From Haliotis asinina (taxonomy: Eukaryota; Mollusca; Gastropoda; Lepetellida; Haliotidae), in contig NC_090295.1 in assembly GCF_037392515.1 (NCBI RefSeq), positions 20,724,001 to 20,788,000 of the forward strand: a stretch of 64,000 nucleotides of DNA, read 5' to 3'. Positions 25,217 to 61,915 of the stretch are shown here, one piece after another (the first letter of the stretch is position 1; each line of letters opens with the position of its first letter). Below the pieces are notes generated by a model. The model saw nothing but the letters and a program-made list of their open reading frames with translations, searched no databases and had not been told where the DNA came from. Made by a program: the position numbers and the translations under genes.

Positions 25217-28200
25217 GTTAGTCTTATCTGTTTATTTTTTAAACAAAGCAAGGATATAATGAATGATGGAACCATTATCATAATTGTCCATGATCCAGTG
25301 GCAGGACATATCTGTAGACTTCTTAAATTGTTCTCAATGCAGTTCCACATTATTGATAGCACATATTGTAATGATACTTTTTAAATCTTTATTTCTGTGT
25401 AATTTGTGTACGTCTTGATTGAAGAATAGATATGATAAAGGTACATAATGTGAGGTATCCATTAAAAATATTTAGAATCTATAGAATATTCTGAAATTAA
25501 TATGATGATGAATTAAATTAGGATGATGATTTTGATGATCAAAACTTAATATATTAGAATTATTACCATGGTAATCCTTTATGATTATGTGAAGTATATA
25601 TTTTTCCTTTTAAGCTACAGATTTTCCTTATTCATTCATGCCTTTCCTGTAAAGGTGGTTATGACCTTGTTTGTTTGTTAGGCGATGAGGGCAGTAAATG
25701 ATGCACAGCGTGCCGTTGCACAGATACAGAAAATCTCCAACATAGACCCAGTTCCCCCTTATGTCTCTCCTGACACCCCTCTGGTGAACCCAAGAACTGG
25801 GGAGACAATACCTGCCTCTGGAGCCTCTGCATCAGTTCCTGTTGCCAGGCAACCAGGTATGTTGGATGAAGTTTGGTTGAAAGGGGGAATCAGGCAAGCG
25901 ATAGCAAGTGATGGGTATTGGTGATGTGAGAAGAAGGGGATGTTAGGAGATGGGGTACATGGGTGATAGGGACCATGGGTGATAGGGTACATGGGTGATA
26001 GGGGTGAGTGAGCATGTAGGTGGGGTGGACAGGTGAGATGACACAGTGAATGATGTTAATAATGATAAATAATAATAATGTGTCCTTTTATATAACACCA
26101 CACCTCACACTGAGTATGCTCACAGTGCTAACAGCATGGTCATAGAGCATACAGTTTATCATTAACCTGGATAATCCAAGTTGCACTAGACGGTTATAGT
26201 CAAGTGATTTATCCCACTGGGTGTCCATTTTCTGGTGGGTGAACAGAGGCAGTTTGGACAGACTCACTTGCATAAGGTGGAATGGCACATGCTTCATTGG
26301 ACAGAAGTTCTAGAAACTCTCAGGAGTCAAGCTGTCACAGGGTTACCCATCCAAGGACTCTGAGCTCAACATTGCTTAACTTAAAAGTCACATGCAACCA
26401 AGAAATCAAACATGATTAAAACACAGTTATCACTTGTTCATGATTTATAAAATGCATTGGTGATTGTGAAGAAACAAATAAAACAGAATTATAAGCATAT
26501 AATTGCAAATCAAAAGTACAAGATTATGTCCTTCGGTTTACCTCCCTCAAAACTAAGCAACCGCGATACCGAACCCAGTCAGTACCGCTGACTGTGCAGT
26601 CAAGTGTAACAGGGCTTTTTCATTGGCCACTGGTTCATTTGCCAATACGCTTAACCGGCTCTTGTTATTCCAATTGCAAATGGTCAGTAATTGAAGTTAC
26701 GCATTGCATATTGTCATCAGCAGACAGACAGGCAGACATATAGCCGTCAATGAATGAGACATTGAGTTTTCTCTGTGACAGAGTCTCCTTTTCACAATCA
26801 ACATGTTTTTTATATAATGAGTAGATTATTTGCTTGTTTATGTATACAACCAAGATTAGACAACTACTCACGACCCATTCTAAGGGGCAGGCATGCAGTT
26901 TCAAGCTCCACGAACCTACTCCTTGTGTGTGCGTTATGAGCGCAGCGCAGCATAGCTGTTGAAACAATTTTTTTTCCCAGCGCTGGAGATTCGATTTCGC
27001 AGGCTATATTTCATCGTGTTTTTTTTTTTAACCTTATAGGTTGAATTGACATTTTTGATGATTTGTTTTGGTAAGTCCATACCAAAAGATATCGGAATCT
27101 GCAAAGTTGTATTTTATGTTGTGACCTTTAAACTGATTTGTGACCTGAGTTTTATGGGTAAGATGGAAGAGATCAGTGAGTGAGAGTGTGGTTGGGTCAA
27201 CAGGTGAGACTTTAATATTGAGTAGGGGCAGGTAATTGTTTCCAAAGTTCTTATTGATATTTCAGTGATCAAAGACAACTCAGCAATCAAAATGTCAGAT
27301 GGTACTTTGATCAACATTGTGAACAGTCAGAATATACAAATCGGCAACTTCAATAGGATGTTTGTCCTGCAAGGCCGCCAGCAGTATCAGGAGATGGAAG
27401 AGGAGGACTCATCCTCTGATTCTGATAACTTCGATGCTGAGGAAGATCTGCAGGAACAGGTGCGTCAACGACGTCTTGCTGATGAGGAGACAGCCGAAAT
27501 ACTTAGAGGTGAGTTTCTTACTTAAGGGTTAATTTCTGATGATGAGATGGCTGAAATACATAGGGATGAGTTTCTGCTGGTGAGGAGACATCTTACTTAA
27601 GGGGTAATTTCTGATGATGAGATGGATGAAATACTTAGGGATGAGTTTCTGCTGGTGAGGAGACATCTTACTTAAGGGGTAATTTCTGATGATGAGATGG
27701 ATGAAATACTTAAGGATGAGTTTCTGCTGATGAGGAGACATCTTACTTAAGGGGTAATTTCTGATGATGAGATGGATGAAATACTTAGGGATGAGTTTCT
27801 GCTGGTGAGGAGACATCTTACTTAAGGGGTAATTTCTGATGATGAGATGGATGAAATACTTAGGGATGAGTTTGTGCTGGTGAGGAGACATCTTACTTAA
27901 GGGGTAATTTCTGATGATGAGATGGATGAAATACTTAGGGATGAGTTTCTGCTGGTGAGGAGACATCTTACTTAAGGGGTAATTTCTGATGATGAGATGG
28001 ATGAAATACTTAGGGATGAGTTTGTGCTGGTGAGGAGACATCTTACTTAAGGGGTAATTTCTGATGATGAGATGGATGAAATACTTAGGGATGAGTTTCT
28101 GCTGGTGAGGAGACATCTTACTTAAGGGGTAATTTCTGATGATGAGATGGATGAAATACTTAGGGATGAGTTTCTGCTGGTGAGGAGACATCTTACTTAA

Positions 28201-31200
28201 GGGGTAATTTCTGATGATGAGATGGATGAAATACTTAGGGATGAGTTTCTGCTGGTGAGGAGACATCTTACTTAAGGGGTAATTTCTGATGATGAGATGG
28301 ATGAAATACTTAGGGATGAGTTTCTGCTGGTGAGGAGACATCTTACTTAAGAGGTAATTTCTGATGATGAGATGGATGAAATACTTAGGGATGAGTTTCT
28401 GCTGATGAGGAGACATCTTACTTAAGGGGTAATTTCTGATGATGAGATGGATGAAATACTTAGGGATGAGTTTCTGCTGGTGAGGAGACATCTTACTTAA
28501 GGGGTAATTTCTGATGATGAGATGGATGAAATACTTAGGGATGAGTTTCTGCTGGTGAGGAGACATCTTACTTAAGGGGTAATTTCTGATGATGAGATGG
28601 ATGAAATACTTAGGGATGAGTTTCTGCTGGTGAGGAGACATCTTACTTAAGGGGTAATTTCTGATGATGAGATGGATGAAATACTTAGGGATGAGTTTGT
28701 GCTGGTGAGGAGACATCTTACTTAAGGGGTAATTTCTGATGATGAGATGGATGAAATACTTAGGGATGAGTTTCTGCTGGTGAGGAGACATCTTACTTAA
28801 GGGGTAATTTCTGATGATGAGATGGATGAAATACTTAGGGATGAGTTTGTGCTGGTGAGGAGACATCTTACTTAAGGGGTAATTTCTGATGATGAGATGG
28901 ATGAAATACTTAGGGATGAGTTTCTGCTGGTGAGGAGACATCTTACTTAAGGGGTAATTTCTGATGATGAGATGGATGAAATACTTAGGGATGAGTTTCT
29001 GCTGGTGAGGAGACATCTTACTTAAGGGGTAATTTCTGATGATGAGATGGATGAAATACTTAGGGATGAGTTTCTGCTGGTGAGGAGACATCTTACTTAA
29101 GGGGTAATTTCTGATGATGAGATGGATGAAATACTTAGGGATGAGTTTCTGCTGGTGAGGAGACATCTTACTTAAGGGGTAATTTCTGATGATGAGATGG
29201 ATGAAATACTTAGGGATGAGTTTCTGCTGGTGAGGAGACATCTTACTTAAGAGGTAATTTCTGATGATGAGATGGATGAAATACTTTGGGATGAGTTTCT
29301 GCTGGTGAGGAGACATCTTACTTAAGGGGTAATTTCTGATGATGAGATGGATGAAATACTTAGGGATGAGTTTGTGCTGATGAGGAGACATCTTACTTAA
29401 GGGGTAATTTCTGATGATGAGATGGATGAAATACTTAGGGATGAGTTTGTGCTGGTGAGGAGACATCTTACTTAAGGGGTAATTTCTGATGATGAGATGG
29501 ATGAAATACATAGGGATGAGTTTGTGCTGGTGAGGAGACATCTTACTTAAGGGGTAATTTCTGATGATGAGATGGATGAAATACTTAGGGATGAGTTTCT
29601 GCTGGTGAGGAGACATCTTACTTAAGGGGTAATTTCTGATGATGAGATGGATGAAATACTTAGGGATGAGTTTGTGCTGGTGAGGAGACATCTTACTTAA
29701 GGGGTAATTTCTGATGATGAGATGGATGAAATACTTAGGGATGAGTTTGTGCTGGTGAGGAGACATCTTACTTAAGGGGTAATTTCTGATGATGAGATGG
29801 ATGAAATACTTAGGGATGAGTTTCTGCTGGTGAGGAGACATCTTACTTAAGGGGTAATTTCTGATGATGAGATGGATGAAATACTTAGGGATGAGTTTCT
29901 GCTGGTGAGGAGACATCTTACTTAAGAGGTAATTTCTGATGATGAGATGGATGAAATACTTAGGGATGAGTTTCTGCTGGTGAGGAGACATCTTACTTAA
30001 GGGGTAATTTCTGATGATGAGATGGATGAAATACTTAGGGATGAGTTTCTGCTGGTGAGGAGACATCTTACTTAAGGGGTAATTTCTGATGATGAGATGG
30101 ATGAAATACTTAGGGATGAGTTTCTGGTGGTGAGGAGACATCTTACTTAAGGGGTAATTTCTGATGATGAGATGGATGAAATACTTAGGGATGAGTTTCT
30201 GCTGGTGAGGAGACATCTTACTTAAGGGGTAATTTCTGATGATGAGATGGATGAAATACTTAGGGATGAGTTTCTGCTGGTGAGGAGACATCTTACTTAA
30301 GGGGTAATTTCTGATGATGAGATGGATGAAATACTTAGGGATGAGTTTCTGCTGGTGAGGAGACATCTTACTTAAGGGGTAATTTCTGATGATGAGATGG
30401 ATGAAATACTTAGGGATGAGTTTGTGCTGGTGAGGAGACATCTTACTTAAGGGGTAATTTCTGATGATGAGATGGATGAAATACTTAGGGATGAGTTTCT
30501 GCTGGTGAGGAGACATCTTACTTAAGGGGTAATTTCTGATGATGAGATGGATGAAATACTTAGGGATGAGTTTGTGCTGGTGAGGAGACATCTTACTTAA
30601 GGGGTAATTTCTGATGATGAGATGGATGAAATACTTAGGGATGAGTTTGTGCTGGTGAGGAGACATCTTACTTAAGGGGTAATTTCTGATGATGAGATGG
30701 ATGAAATACTTAGGGATGAGTTTGTGCTGGTGAGGAGACATCTTACTTAAGGGGTAATTTCTGATGATGAGATGGATGAAATACTTAGGGATGAGTTTCT
30801 GCTGGTGAGGAGACATCTTACTTAAGGGGTAATTTCTGATGATGAGATGGATGAAATACTTAGGGATGAGTTTCTGCTGGTGAGGAGACATCTTACTTAA
30901 GGGGTAATTTCTGATGATGAGATGGATGAAATACTTAGGGATGAGTTTCTGCTGGTGAGGAGACATCTTACTTAAGGGGTAATTTCTGATGATGAGATGG
31001 ATGAAATACTTAGGGATGAGTTTGTGCTGGTGAGGAGACATCTTACTTAAGGGGTAATTTCTGATGATGAGATGGATGAAATACTTAGGGATGAGTTTGT
31101 GCTGGTGAGGAGACATCTTACTTAAGGGGTAATTTCTGATGATGAGATGGATGAAATACTTAGGGATGAGTTTCTGCTGGTGAGGAGACATCTTACTTAA

Positions 31201-33580
31201 GGGGTAATTTCTGATGATGAGATGGATGAAATACTTAGGGATGAGTTTGTGCTGGTGAGGAGACATCTTACTTAAGGGGTAATTTCTGATGATGAGATGG
31301 ATGAAATACTTAGGGATGAGTTTCTGGTGGTGAGGAGACATCTTACTTAAGGGGTAATTTCTGATGATGAGATGGATGAAATACTTAGGGATGAGTTTCT
31401 GCTGGTGAGGAGACATCTTACTTAAGGGGTAATTTCTGATGATGAGATGGATGAAATACTTAGGGATGAGTTTCTGCTGGTGAGGAGACATCTTACTTAA
31501 GGGGTAATTTCTGATGATGAGATGGATGAAATACTTAGGGATGAGTTTGTGCTGGTGAGGAGACATCTTACTTAAGGGGTAATTTCTGATGATGAGATGG
31601 ATGAAATACTTAGGGATGAGTTTCTGCTGGTGAGGAGACATCTTACTTAAGGGGTAATTTCTGATGATGAGATGGATGAAATACTTAGGGATGAGTTTCT
31701 GGTGATGAGGAGACATCTTACTTAAGGGGTAATTTCTGATGATGAGATGGATGAAATACTTAGGGATGAGTTTGTGCTGGTGAGGAGACATCTTACTTAA
31801 GGGGTAATTTCTGATGATGAGATGGATGAAATACTTAGGGATGAGTTTCTGCTGGTGAGGAGACATCTTACTTAAGAGGTAATTTCTGATGATGAGATGG
31901 ATGAAATACTTAGGGATGAGTTTCTGCTGGTGAGGAGACATCTTACTTAAGGGGTAATTTCTGATGATGAGATGGATGAAATACTTAGGGATGAGTTTCT
32001 GGTGATGAGGAGACATCTTACTTAAGGGGTAATTTCTGATGATGAGATGGATGAAATACTTAGGGATGAGTTTGTGCTGGTGAGGAGACATCTGAAATAT
32101 TTAAAGGGTATGAGTCATGGGTTGCTGAAGAAGCAGGATAGTAGATAGTGTCTCAGATAGAATGGTGATTCTTCAGGGATTAGTTTGATTTATCACACAA
32201 TGAACATGGAGATAAAAGGCAAACATTCGTGTTTTAGATTCGCATCGCCAGGTCTCGGATGCAGAGCTTCAGCGATTGTCTCGTCACATTGGTGGATCGT
32301 GGAGGAGACTAAGTAAGTGGGCTGCCATAAACACAAAAGCAGTGATATGGCTAGCTATTCTCGAAACGTTCGTAGCCGTACGAAGTTCTTAAGCCCATTC
32401 GTAACACATTGGCTACGATCAAAGTTAAGAATTCTGAGGGCTACGAACGTTTTGAGAATAAGGGATATGGATGATTATTTTATACTTAGTGCTGTTTGGG
32501 GTGATACTGAAGACCTGGTCTCAATTCCCCAGATGGATACAATGCGTGAAGCCAATATCTGGTGTCCCCTCAGTGATCTTGATGGAATATTGTTTAAAGT
32601 GTTGTGAAAATAATCTCACTCACTCACTCCATTTCTGGTGTCCCCTGCTGTGATGTTGCTGGAATATTGCTAAAAGCAGCATAAAACCAAACTCACTCAT
32701 AATACTGTTTGATGAGAGCAGCATATTTGTGAAACCATGGAATTTAAGCATCAGTCGCACATTTTTGTACATGTTGATTATTTTTATTTCTTTCCCATTT
32801 TTTGCCAGTTAATAATAACTTTTCCTGAAAAATTTATGGGTATTTTCTCTGTGGTCTCAAGATGACTGCCTTTAATCTTGTATGTATGGCCAGACTTTGG
32901 GCCCAAACTGCATGTGAAGAGGTCAATTTTTGAAAAAGTTCAAATTTTAAGTTTAATATTTAATCAAAAGTGCTGAAAGAAACATATAGGAGTTATCTCC
33001 CTTTCATTAAATATCTGAGTCTTTACTGAATGCCTCTATCCACAGTTCAACTGTAGTCTAAAATGTTGCAGCAACTTGTGATCATCATCACACAAAGTAC
33101 ATCTCTTGCTGTCTGTGGGGCATGGGGGTAACCCAGTGGTTAAAATGTTCGGTCATCATGTGGAAGGTCCAGGTTCAATTCCCCACATGGGTACAATGTG
33201 CAAAGCCCATTTCTGTTGTCCCCCACCATGATGTTGCTTTAATATTGCATAAAGATGTGTAAAACTAAACTCACTCTCGCATTTTCTGTCTGTATCAACA
33301 GTTTTATTGTAAGATTCACTAAGATGTATCTGGTACCTTAATTTCGACGTTGCCACACAGCCTGTCACTTATGTCTGTGTCCACAGTTCGGCTGCTGGGG
33401 ATTGAAGAGTCAGATGTGGACTACATTTTCCACACCCACCAGAGCGATGGTCTGGAGGAGGTGATATACCAGCTGCTGAAGAAATGGAAGATCGAAAACA
33501 ATAACCCCACTGTTGGTGATCTCATCACGGCGCTGGAGAGAGCCGAGATGGGTCGGTTATTAAAACATCTGAAGCCTTGA
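25142..33580 (+). CDS. IMD/RIPK1-like adaptor with RHIM and C-terminal death domain (5 exons)
   Basis: Proposed coding exons are 25142-25216, 25682-25856, 27266-27508, 32238-32312 and 33387-33580, giving 253 residues. Reading phases agree at all four junctions (0, 1, 1, 1). Residues 107-115, IQIGNFNRM, match the RHIM core (I/V-Q-I/V-G-x-x-N-x-M) of RIPK1 and IMD. An acidic serine-rich linker follows (about 126-150). Residues 170-250 form a death domain with LSRHIGGSW, RLLGIEESDVDYI, GLEEVIYQLLKKW and TVGDLITAL, the order seen in RIPK1. No kinase exon was found upstream, so length and layout fit Drosophila IMD (about 270 residues) better than RIPK1. Known relatives assemble amyloid-like signalling platforms leading to NF-kB. 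Exon 1 is the weakest part: its donor is GAT/GTTAGT and upstream ATGs precede it. Translation could instead start at the ATG at 25685. Exons 3-5 are secure. Confidence 0.82.
26385..27127 (-). mobile_element. TTAA-flanked TIR element (AGGTCACATGCAA family), short copy in intron 2 of the IMD-like gene
   Basis: The ends are inverted (AAGTCACATGCAAC and its complement at GTGACCT) with TTAA on both sides (26381-26384 and 27128-27131). The body is the reverse complement of large parts of 1872-3148: 26385-26650 matches about 2885-3148, and 26680-27127 matches about 1872-2290. No transposase is seen, so it is non-autonomous. TTAA targets are used by the piggyBac and Kolobok superfamilies; the terminal bases do not decide between them. 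Confidence 0.85.
27509..32091. repeat. 75-bp minisatellite, about 60 copies, in intron 3 of the IMD-like gene
   Basis: Units of 75 bp run almost without length change from about 27530 to 32091. Most differences are single-base variants such as TTTCTG/TTTGTG, GGTGAGG/GATGAGG and GGGGT/GAGGT. The first unit begins a few bases after the splice donor of exon 3. Each unit contains a degraded copy of the exon 3 end: exon GAAATACTTAGAGGTGAG against unit GAAATACTTAGGGATGAG. The donor GT is AT in every copy, so the copies do not offer the authentic splice site. All plus-strand frames carry stops. Because 75 is a multiple of 3, one minus-strand frame stays open for about 1520 codons, which I regard as an artefact. 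Confidence 0.98.
32357..32461. mobile_element. Palindromic MITE (TTCTCGAAACGTTCGTAGCC ends), intron 4 of the IMD-like gene
   Basis: 20-bp ends TTCTCGAAACGTTCGTAGCC and GGCTACGAACGTTTTGAGAA are near-perfect inverted repeats. This copy is the unoccupied counterpart of the site filled at 21873-23496. Confidence 0.88.
32512..32693 (+). mobile_element. SINE-B copy, head-truncated, with a second tail unit
   Basis: Has TCTCAATTCCCCAGATGG then two successive tails: a diverged one ending CTCACTCACTCACTCC, and a second, better one ending GCATAAAACCAAACTCACTC. Lies in intron 4 of the IMD-like gene. Confidence 0.8.
33113..33275 (+). mobile_element. SINE-B copy (tRNA-derived head), in intron 4 of the IMD-like gene
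   Basis: The head is tRNA-like: TAACCCAGTGGTTA fits an A box and GGTTCAATTCCCC fits a B box. The body is CATGGGTACAATGTGCAAAG, and the tail GTGTAAAACTAAACTCACTC is shared with SINE-A. Confidence 0.88.
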
Positions 33581-35683
33581 AGTTTTTCTGGTTTGTCCTG
33601 TATTTCTTGAAATAACCACACACTTTTCCAAAAAGGCTATGATTTTGTTTTGTCAGTGATTTGTTTGTCAGTGTAAATTAATGCATCGCCCACCTTAAAT
33701 TGTTGAAAAGGGGTTTCCCTTCTGTACTAGTCTCCTGATAGTGTCATCACAGTTGATGTGTTTGAAGCCCATTTTATGTTTGGGGGTGAGTGCTAATTTC
33801 AGGAAATATGGTATAAGATAAGTTTGTGAAATGGAATACTTTGGAAGGAAATAATCAGATCTTGTTCCCTATTGAGATTAAGTTGTTGAAAAAACATAGA
33901 AGTTAAAAACTGTCATTTTGGTTACCATGGTTATTTATGTGTGCGTAGATCATATGAATGGAATGATTTGATAAGGCTTCAGAGAGTGAAATTATTTCAC
34001 AAAGATGCAAGACAACTCAGCATTATTGTTGTTATTGTTTGTTTGAATTAAGGAGGTAATTATTGACATTGTGAATGTTCTAAACTTGAATTGCCTGGTA
34101 TCTTATGTTCTTCATATTAAATATTTTGATGTTTCTTGTTATGTCCCTTTCTGATATTGGCTTCATGTTCCTTCAAGAGTGTGAGTCCTTCATGGCCCTG
34201 TATCATTGCTGCCACAAGCAGAATGCAGTACTGTGAGGAGCTGTGACTGATGACAGCACTTGTATACTGAGCTCCACAAATTTAGTCACTGTGAGAAGCT
34301 TGTGCTGCTTCTCTACTTAAAACATATATGCTCAAGGTGATATGTTGATTTTGGATTTGTTTGTGTTTATTTGTTTGAAATGTCTTGTTCGAACCAGCCT
34401 ACATCAAAGTGTTCTGTCAGGAATATGATAATTAATAACAAAAGGATGAGGATTTTTATTCCCCTAAAATTATGCATGCAGCAAAGGTCTGATTGTCCTC
34501 GAAACTTGAGATCAAAGATACCTGCTCCCCAATGCTTTTGCTACAAAATAACGCCAACACATTAAAACTGACTTCCAGCTTTGCATTGTGGGTCAGTCAA
34601 TGTTTTGCAAGTTCGGCGAGAGAATTGATGCAGTGATCATATCACTTGGCAGTTAGATCAGTTTTGGATCTTAAGTATCAAACCAGTGTTGTGGCTTTCA
34701 CTACAGCATTTTTTTTTAAAAAGTCAAGAAAGACATCAAGAAAGTAACTTGTCCCGACTAATTTTCCACTTGCCCTGATGTTATGACACAATGTTTGATG
34801 GTAATGTCTACTGGACTATTTGTCGAAGAGTGATGCATTTCCAAGAATGATAGCTCTACTTTATTATTATAGCGAAATTTATTATTTATAATAGCTACAT
34901 TATAAGCAGATATGAAATGAAATCCACATTTATTTGCAGTTTGAAACCATAAGTGGAAACTATCTAGTAGTCCAAGGAAAAGTAAGATACTATTATTTAA
35001 TTGCCCTTAAAACTGACTTGTCTATGAGACGGTAACTGTTACACCAGTTTTGTCTGTGAGATGTATGATAACTGTTTGAACCAGTTTTGTCTGTGAGAGG
35101 AATGATACGTGTGTGGCAAGCTTAGTCTTTGAAATGTATGACAAGTGTGTGGACAAGCTTAGTATGTGAGACATTTGATAAGTGTTTTAACCACTTTTGT
35201 CTGTGAGATGCATGATAACTGATAACCAGTTTTGTCTGTGAGACAAACAATAACTGTTTGAACCAATTTTGTCTGTGAGACATACAATAACTGTTTGAAC
35301 CAGTTTTGCCTTTGAGATGTATGATAACTGTTTTAACCAGTTTGTGAGACATACGATAACTGTTTGAACCAGTTTTGTCTGAGGGACATATGATAACTGT
35401 TTGAATTCGTTTTGCCTGTGAGATGTATGATAACTGTTCTAACAAGTTTTGTCTGAGGGACACACAATAACTGTTTGAACCGGTTTTGCCTGTGAGATGT
35501 ATGATAACTGTTTGAACCAGCTTATTTTGTGGTGTGACTGCCACTGTATGAACCAGCTTTGTCTGTGAGACATTAATTCATGACTGTAAATACCCAAGGT
35601 GTCTGCTTGTTTTGTTATTGTTAGCTTTTTGTAGTATAGTCTTTTCCCTTTTGAGAAACCTTGTTATCTCAAGCTCTAATAAA
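33581..35683 (+). other. Putative 3' UTR of the IMD-like gene
   Basis: The stretch after the stop codon is AT-rich and holds no supported coding region. Candidate polyadenylation hexamers are ATTAAA at 34116-34121 and AATAAA at 35678-35683; the sequence alone does not say which is used. If the later one is used, the UTR includes the 37-bp minisatellite at 35030-35565. Confidence 0.35.
35030..35565. repeat. 37-bp minisatellite (TAACTGTTTGAACCAGTTTT type)
   Basis: About fourteen degenerate units of 36-37 bp carry the shared core TAACTGTTTGAACCAG followed by TTTTGTCTGTGAGA. Units differ by substitutions and small deletions. An open minus-strand frame of 140 codons across it is a by-product of the repeat. 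Confidence 0.95.
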
Positions 35684-42064: not shown

Positions 42065-42815
42065 GAGGGTTGGTGGTGGATGGTGGAACACAGGATGGTG
42101 GTGGGTGGGTGGGTATACAAAGGATGGTGGTGGGTGTGTGGGTTTACACGTTATGGGGTTGGGAGGTGCTACACAGGATGGTGGTGGGGTGAATGGGTTT
42201 ACACAGGATGGTGGTGGGTGGTGCTACACCCGGTGGGGTGGGTGGAGGGCTTTACACAGGATAATTGCGTGGTGTGTGGGTTTACACATTATGGTGGTGG
42301 GTGGTGCTACACAGGATGGTTGGTGGGGTGGATGGTTTACACAGGATGGTGGTGGGTGGTGCTACACAGGGTGGGGGTGGGGTGGAGGGGTTTGCACAGG
42401 ATGGTGGTGGGGTGTGTGGGTCTACACATTATGGTGGTGGGTGGTGCTACACAGGATGGTGGTGGGGTGGATGGGTTTACACAGGATGGTGGTACACAGG
42501 ATGGTGGTAGGGTGTGTGGGTTTACACATTATGGTGGTGGGTGGTGCAACACAGGATGGTGGTGGGGTGGATGGGTTTACACAGGATGGTTGTGGGTGGT
42601 GGTACACAGGATGGTGGTGGGGTGGAGGGGTTTACACTGGATGGGGATGGGGTGGGTGGGTCTACAGAGGATGGTGGTAGGGTGGGTGGGTGTACACAGG
42701 ATGGTTGAGTGAGTGGTGGTGGTGGTGTGTGTGTGTGGGGGGTGATACACAGGAGAATGGTGCAAACTGTGTGCGAGTGCACAGGATGGTGGTGGGATGG
42801 GGGCAACTACAGAGG
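42065..42815. repeat. G-rich minisatellite (TACACAGGATGGTGGTGGGT)
   Basis: About 25 irregular units of 25-35 bp with strong strand asymmetry: G and T on plus, C and A on minus. Long open frames in several frames (up to 233 codons of Trp, Gly, Val) are repeat artefacts. Runs of GGTGG and GGGTGG could form G-quadruplexes. Confidence 0.95.
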
Positions 42816-60519: not shown

Positions 60520-61915
60520 GGCATAAATGTGATATTGCTGACTTTGTGCCACCCTGGTATAAGTGGACTATATGCAGCTGTGGTATAATATAATATTGGT
60601 GACTTAAAGCAGCCTTGGTATTAACGTAATACTGCTGATTATGTGCATGCAGTTGTATAAATGTAATATTTTTGGCTATATGCATGCAGTTGTATAAATG
60701 TAATATTTTTGGCTATATGCATGCAGTTGTATAAATGTAATATTTTTGGCTATATGCATGCAGTTGTATAAATGTAATATTTTTGGCTATATGCATGCAG
60801 TTGTATAAATGTAATATTTTTGGCTATATGCATGCAGTTGTATAAATGTAATATTTTTGGCTATGTGCATGCAGTTGTATAAATGTAATATTTTTGGCTA
60901 TATGCATGCAGTTGTATAAATGTATTATTTGCTATATGCATGCAGTTGTATAAATGTAATATTTTTGGCTATATGCATGCAGTTGTATAAATGTATTTTT
61001 TTGCTATATGCATGCAGTTGTATAAATGTAATATTTTTGGCTATGTGCATGCAGTTGTATAAATGTAGTATTTTTGGTCATATGCATGCAGTTGTGGTAT
61101 ATGTAATCTTGCTGACTTTATACAGTCCTGCTGTAAATGTAATATTTTTGGCTATATGCATGCAGTTGTATAAATGTAATATTTTTGGCTATGTGCATGC
61201 AGTTGTATAAATGTAATATTTTTGGCTATATGCATGCAGTTGTATAAATGTATTTTTTGCTATATGCATGCAGTTGTATAAATGTAATATTTTTGGCTAT
61301 ATGCATGCAGTTGTATAAATGTATTTTTTTGCTATATGCATGCAGTTGTATAAATGTAATATTTTTGGCTATGTGCATGCAGTTGTATAAATGTAATATT
61401 TTTGGCTATATGCATGCAGTTGTATAAATGTAATATTTTTGGCTATATGCATGCAGTTGTATAAATGTAATATTTTTGGCTATATGCATGCAGTTGTATA
61501 AATGTAATATTTTTGGCTATATGCATGCAGTTGTATAAATGTAATATTTTTGGCTATATGCATGCAGTTGTATAAATGTAATATTTTTGGCTATGTGCAT
61601 GCAGTTGTATAAATGTAATATTTTTGGCTATATGCATGCAGTTGTATAAATGTATTATTTGCTATATGCATGCAGTTGTATAAATGTAATATTTTTGGCT
61701 ATATGCATGCAGTTGTATAAATGTATTTTTTTGCTATATGCATGCAGTTGTATAAATGTAATATTTTTGGCTATGTGCATGCAGTTGTATAAATGTAGTA
61801 TTTTTGGTCATATGCATGCAGTTGTGGTATATGTAATCTTGCTGACTTTATACAGTCCTGCTGTAAATGTAATATTGCTGACTACTGCCCACTGTGGTAT
61901 AAATGTAATATTGCT
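60520..61915. repeat. 37-bp minisatellite with higher-order repeat
   Basis: About 37 units of 36-38 bp, core TTGTATAAATGTAATATTTT then TGGCTATATGCATGCAG. Outer units are diverged and inner ones nearly identical. A block at about 60840-61145 recurs at about 61570-61875, offset 730 bp, including the same odd units (TGTATTATTTGC, GTGGTATATGTAATCTTGCT). Confidence 0.95.

Follow-up and report, generated by a model that had tools for sequence, protein, structure and literature searches.

Four coding exons of a single gene lie on the + strand of the window (the whole stretch of 64,000 nucleotides that was analysed), at 25682-25856, 27266-27508, 32238-32312 and 33387-33580. All have AG/GT borders and, when joined, they form one reading frame. 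The exon numbering used here is that of the initial annotation, in which the earliest exon identified (25682-25856) is exon 2. Domain searches place a RHIM-like motif in exon 3 (27266-27508), the start of a Death domain in the following 75-nt exon, and the remainder of this domain, with the stop codon, in the last coding exon found. In the joined protein, the Death domain scores 53.0 bits (cut-off 22.6) and the RHIM-like motif 15.7 bits, under the Pfam cut-off of 20. The closest solved relatives, identified with a query containing one wrong residue at the last join, are RIPK1 Death domains. A simple pattern scan of the window in all six frames detected no kinase catalytic motif, although an intron interrupting the motif could have hidden it from such a scan. 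Judging from its predicted product, the host gene (25682-33580) looks like an adaptor of the Imd/RIPK1 type. Two papers report that the Imd adaptor had not been found in molluscs (PMC9835746, published in 2023) and that RIPKs were not found in Aplysia (PMC9334734).

Elsewhere in the genome, RHIM-like matches above the Pfam cut-off occur at C9:37569355-37569414 (21.8 bits), where the match carries INIVNCKHVQIG, and at C16:18134745-18134786 (23.5 bits). Two clusters of kinase-domain matches, each match in a single open frame and scoring almost the same as its neighbours, lie at C5:13406869-13423781 (seven matches) and C10:35563368-35605462 (six); they are perhaps recent tandem gene families. Within the host gene, the words CTCACTCACTC and ATGTTGCT, at 32558-32699 and about 33120-33290, resemble the tails of tRNA-type SINEs.

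The intron that follows exon 3 is 4729 bp long, and 96.7% of it is a tandem array. TRF delimits a 75-bp repeat present 61 times at 27516-32093 (98% matches), and cutting the sequence in register yields 61 units on the + strand (27516-32090), bearing out the annotated 4.6-kb minisatellite of about 60 copies. Searching the 1.14-Gb genome with the unit returned at least 61 matches, all inside this array. Rfam gave no match at gathering thresholds, and a search for relatives in viral contigs gave 14 pattern matches, none of them confirmed. A 27-bp abalone intron repeat, as printed in PMC6905558, is absent from the genome at up to 3 mismatches. The minus strand of the array contains an open frame of 1523 amino acids (27529-32100), which was considered as a gene and rejected: 77.9% of shuffled 75-mers are also open, and the frame is probably due to chance. 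Other sizeable tandem arrays detected by TRF in the window are located at 60640-61837 (37 bp x 32.8), 42071-42705 (a composite of 55-138 bp) and 35033-35570 (37 bp x 14.5).

The initial annotation had recognised the end of exon 3 in the units and had called for an alignment against shuffled controls. When this was done, the exon end (27475-27514) matched the unit at 32 of 40 bases, ungapped, with a score of 40, far above anything obtained by dinucleotide shuffling: none of 5000 shuffles on each side reached this value, the best scores being 26 with the exon end shuffled and 28 with the unit shuffled. Likewise, 6228 real 76-nt stretches taken from the window all stayed below 40 (best, 25), and four other exon pieces of the host gene scored 15-18 against the unit. 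A 23-mer spanning the junction is found with no more than 3 mismatches in 60 of the 61 units and with 4 in the remaining one; in the rest of the window, beyond the array region, every 23-mer has more than 6 mismatches to it. Both sequences are purine-rich and abound in GAT and GAG words, but these shuffles, real stretches and 23-mer counts leave a chance resemblance with next to no probability. A further match in the initial annotation, that of TTTCTTACTTAAGGG to CATCTTACTTAAGGGG, is trivial as evidence, the stretch in question being simply the start of unit 1 (27516).

Three versions of the junction could be aligned. The first, M0 (27477-27514), comprises the exon end and the true donor and is the source-like copy. 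The second, A, is a full junction copy, located at 27534-27571 in unit 1 and carried by 61 of 61 units, in which the donor GT has become AT. The third, T (32075-32115), sits at the 3' edge of the array and shares 33 of 38 bases with the exon end, apart from a 3-nt insertion; none of 2000 shuffles did as well. Both A and T match the exon side as well as the donor of 27477-27514; tandem copies that take in both sides of a splice boundary are also a feature of the repeats termed "mirages" in amphioxus (see below). T also retains a GAAA that is absent from the inner units at the corresponding place. The B half of the unit resembles M0 too (0 of 2000 shuffles as good), and the resemblance between the A and B halves is weak (27 of 5000 shuffles as good). 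A candidate copy termed B0 was discarded, as 233 of 5000 shuffles matched as well. The first unit had been described as an intermediate between exon and later units; this rests on one base, as the three differences of unit 1 comprise one toward the exon (column 36), one away from it (column 45, common to unit 27) and one that is not comparable. The far-edge copy T, at 33/38, is the better intermediate.

The units are strikingly alike, each being identical to the consensus at 72 to 75 of 75 positions. Altogether, there are 38 differences in 4575 bases, confined to 9 variable columns; unit 1 has the most (3/75) and the remaining units have 0-2. Any two units differ on average at 1.03 positions per 75 bp and neighbouring units at 1.00, so that neighbours are hardly closer to each other than any pair. 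No higher-order structure is claimed: the largest lag z is 2.1 (lag 9), and the observed block repeat was reached by 500 of 500 shuffles. Unlike the array edges, the inner units are nearly uniform, and T, as an edge copy, has diverged from them; homogenised inner units and excluded edge units are again found in mirages. Arrays of this length are prone to assembly error, and the count of 61 comes from one assembly. Nonetheless, a number produced by collapse or over-extension appears very improbable, since unit variants of several kinds are scattered through the array with no block repeats and unique sequence is present at both edges. Such an error would, in any case, touch the length of the array and not its origin.

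From the loss of the donor GT in every copy, the array had been called splice-silent. The first part of this statement holds for A, whose donor-homologous site is of the GGATGAGT type, with AT, in 61/61 units. The second part is unsupported, having been deduced from that one site: 56 of 61 units contain a strong candidate donor, GTGAGG, elsewhere in the unit, and a weaker GGTAATT site is present in 60 of 61. Candidate sites were scored with a weight matrix. By this measure, the true 5' splice site, GTGAGT (27509-27514), scores 11.6 and the donors of exons 2 and 4 score 9.7 and 6.4, respectively. The candidate CTG/GTGAGG, at 27577-27585 in unit 1 and recurring every 75 bp, occurs in 54 units (score 10.0), and GTG/GTGAGG in 2 (8.9); of the 3830 other + strand GTs in the window, 0.3% score 10.0 or more. 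The candidate lies within exon-derived sequence (GATGAGG in the exon, GGTGAGG in the unit), away from the old donor position. Its first G belongs to the more variable columns and is lost in 5 of 61 units; the donor thus shows no sign of upkeep.

Being the strongest site and the first to be reached, the true donor probably remains in use, with the RHIM exon still spliced to the Death-domain exon. Should the true donor go unused, translation would read through ...LRGEFLT into an in-frame TAA (27523-27525, hand-counted position), which comes before the Death domain. Transcripts spliced from the array donors instead would run into this codon and encode a RHIM-only product, which would probably be degraded. 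One can then conceive of the array as a selected ladder of splice sites, in which the GTGAGG donors bind U1 and set the amount of intron-retaining or RHIM-only product. The presence of these donors in 56 units, their score of 10.0 (two donors of the gene itself score 9.7 and 6.4), the position of the TAA and the series of acceptors found in a paralogue (see below) would all fit. We nevertheless regard selection of this kind as decidedly unlikely, given the variability of the donor's first G. Furthermore, there is one strong site per unit, repeated 61-fold only because the unit is, and in amphioxus arrays of this kind left regular splicing undisturbed by the authors' RT-PCR, as reported in PMC3087553 and PMC3902484.

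The direction of copying was assessed by comparing M0, A and T over 38 columns, the 3-nt insertion of T being dropped. Twenty-six columns are the same in all three; of the rest, 7 changes are private to A, 4 to T and 1 to M0. The lone change in M0 is synonymous (alanine codon, third base); of the other 11, codon positions 1, 2 and 3 account for 3, 4 and 3, and the first base of the donor for one (both by hand count). A preponderance of changes in A and T is what a constrained exon and two free copies would be predicted to yield. The exon is thus the least changed of the three copies, which favours it as the putative source, although the comparison rests on 12 sites within one genome and, under an equal split, M0 would have one change or none with a probability of about 5% (hand calculation). 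Under the reverse scenario, the repeat would have arisen first, in the intron, and the exon would have grown into the outermost copy through a shift of the donor. Such shifts could be tolerated here, as the exon end sits in a linker ahead of the Death domain match. The scenario is, however, unlikely: besides the distribution of private changes and the synonymous nature of the one in M0, the corresponding exon of the paralogue also closes with a similar ...ILELR and a same-phase donor, and has no array there.

Taken together, these data make it likely that the array is a junction-derived intronic minisatellite of the mirage kind, formed in two steps and most likely a by-product without selected function. 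In the first step, tandem copying would have placed some 38 bp of exon end and donor in the intron, as A and T, next to M0. Released from coding, A and T would have drifted, the donor of A turning into AT. In the second step, a 75-bp intronic stretch lying between two TCT trinucleotides, and made up of intron sequence, A and the first half of T, would have been duplicated; the duplicated stretch would then have grown to 61 copies through slippage or unequal exchange, leaving M0 to the left of the array and the remainder of T to its right. The first step is reconstructed from the edge copies; the second can be read from the junctions, which are GTTTCT/TACTT on the left, ACATCT/TACTT inside and ACATCT/GAAAT on the right. 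This is the pattern predicted by one tandem duplication between the TCTs, suggesting that A and T were already in place before the 61-fold growth. The microhomology common to the duplication edges is short (TCT, 3 bases). Two steps are invoked because the unit, whose start is 7 bp into the intron, combines intron sequence with an older junction copy in full and half of another. M0 directly adjoins the array, but the distance from M0 to the A of unit 1 is 57 bp as against a period of 75, and one further event is needed to account for it. Thus, of the original proposal that a splice-junction duplication expanded into the array, the junction origin is well supported, by T and the three-way comparison more than by unit 1; the process appears to have involved two steps, however, and the unit that expanded is intronic.

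A protein search of the genome yielded 8 matches, three of which are the host-gene exons and one a clear paralogue (C16:37.5 Mb; L017 6470-8507, equivalent to C16:37535469-37537506). Its RHIM-like and Death exons follow the same order, the middle exon is 75 nt as in the host, the intron phase is the same and the last exon is 44% identical. The homologous intron (1113 bp) harbors a 58-bp array of 9.6 copies that extends into and across the middle exon's acceptor. With the register kept, the first 35 bases of this exon match the unit better than all 17086 real 35-mers and 5000 shuffles. When the 3 exon bases already within the TRF array are left out, 9 of 17104 real stretches do as well, and a local search with the first 46 exon bases alone, not tied to the register, gives a weaker result (116 of 16314 stretches and 27 of 5000 shuffles as good). 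At the acceptor position, six upstream units read CACAG and one CATAG. As the units of host and paralogue are not alike (score 13), the two arrays look like separate events. A small second array (21 bp x 2.8; L017 7877-7934) starts 22 bp after the middle exon of the paralogue and does not contain the junction.

The frequency of such arrangements was estimated from control genes, for which match ends served as approximate splice sites. A junction array was found at none of 60 match ends in chaperonin controls (30 of 52 matches) and none of 40 in kinase controls (20 of 138 matches), i.e., at 0 of 100 exon ends in this small combined control. Two arrays near a kinase match end proved, on reading, not to contain the junction. 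Six Death/RHIM fragments gave 0 of 12 ends. The host gene and paralogue, with 12 borders, have two junction arrays, the 21-bp array on the 3' side of the paralogue's middle exon being one more, without the junction. The coincidence of two junction arrays in one homologous intron is suggestive, but was noticed after the fact. We consider it doubtful that RHIM-Death adaptor genes have, at this position, an intron that readily grows splice-site ladders or in which such ladders are favoured (56 candidate donors on the 5' side in one gene, acceptors on the 3' side in the paralogue). If it were, array length would set the frequency of a RHIM-only or otherwise truncated adaptor.

Interpreted as a junction-derived minisatellite, the locus belongs to an already known type of event, first described in amphioxus. 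PMC3087553 and PMC3902484 describe mirages as tandem repeats spanning exon-intron boundaries, at either end of an intron, and cite as examples Adh3, the globins BflGb6 and BflGb9, troponin C and PGBD5. In the literature located on the topic, "mirage" in this sense was found for amphioxus in these two papers; the word itself also occurs once in PMC12030637. The present array resembles the amphioxus cases in the tandem arrangement of an exon-intron boundary, the presence of some splice signals and the homogenisation of inner but not edge units. It differs from the BflGb6 mirage, for which PMC3087553 gives 6 and 3 units in two haplotypes, in having 61 units, and from amphioxus mirages as described there in that the expanded unit is a second-step segment starting inside the intron. 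The human IFI6 (6-16) minisatellite (Turri 1995), as cited in a later paper, likewise lies at a donor and offers a series of donors, comparable to the plausible GTGAGG sites carried by 56/61 units here. The citing paper states that mRNAs make use of the repeat donors in IFI6; those described here are known from DNA, and the strong site lies away from the old donor position. Internal tandem repeats in human paralogues provide another parallel: as stated in PMC2812944, growth of minisatellites at exon-intron borders can alter gene structure and create introns. Those repeats have, on average, 30-bp units x 4 and occur in recent duplicates, as compared to 75 bp x 61 and a distant paralogue (44% in the last exon) in this case. 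A role for junction minisatellites as raw material in the birth of new introns has also been put forward (PMC3087553). To these precedents the locus adds a long array, a two-step history and, in the homologous intron of the paralogue, a mirror case. Source, edge copies, duplication breakpoint and expansion are all still readable in one sequence, and the effect on splicing of 56 near-consensus candidate donors in series becomes a testable question.
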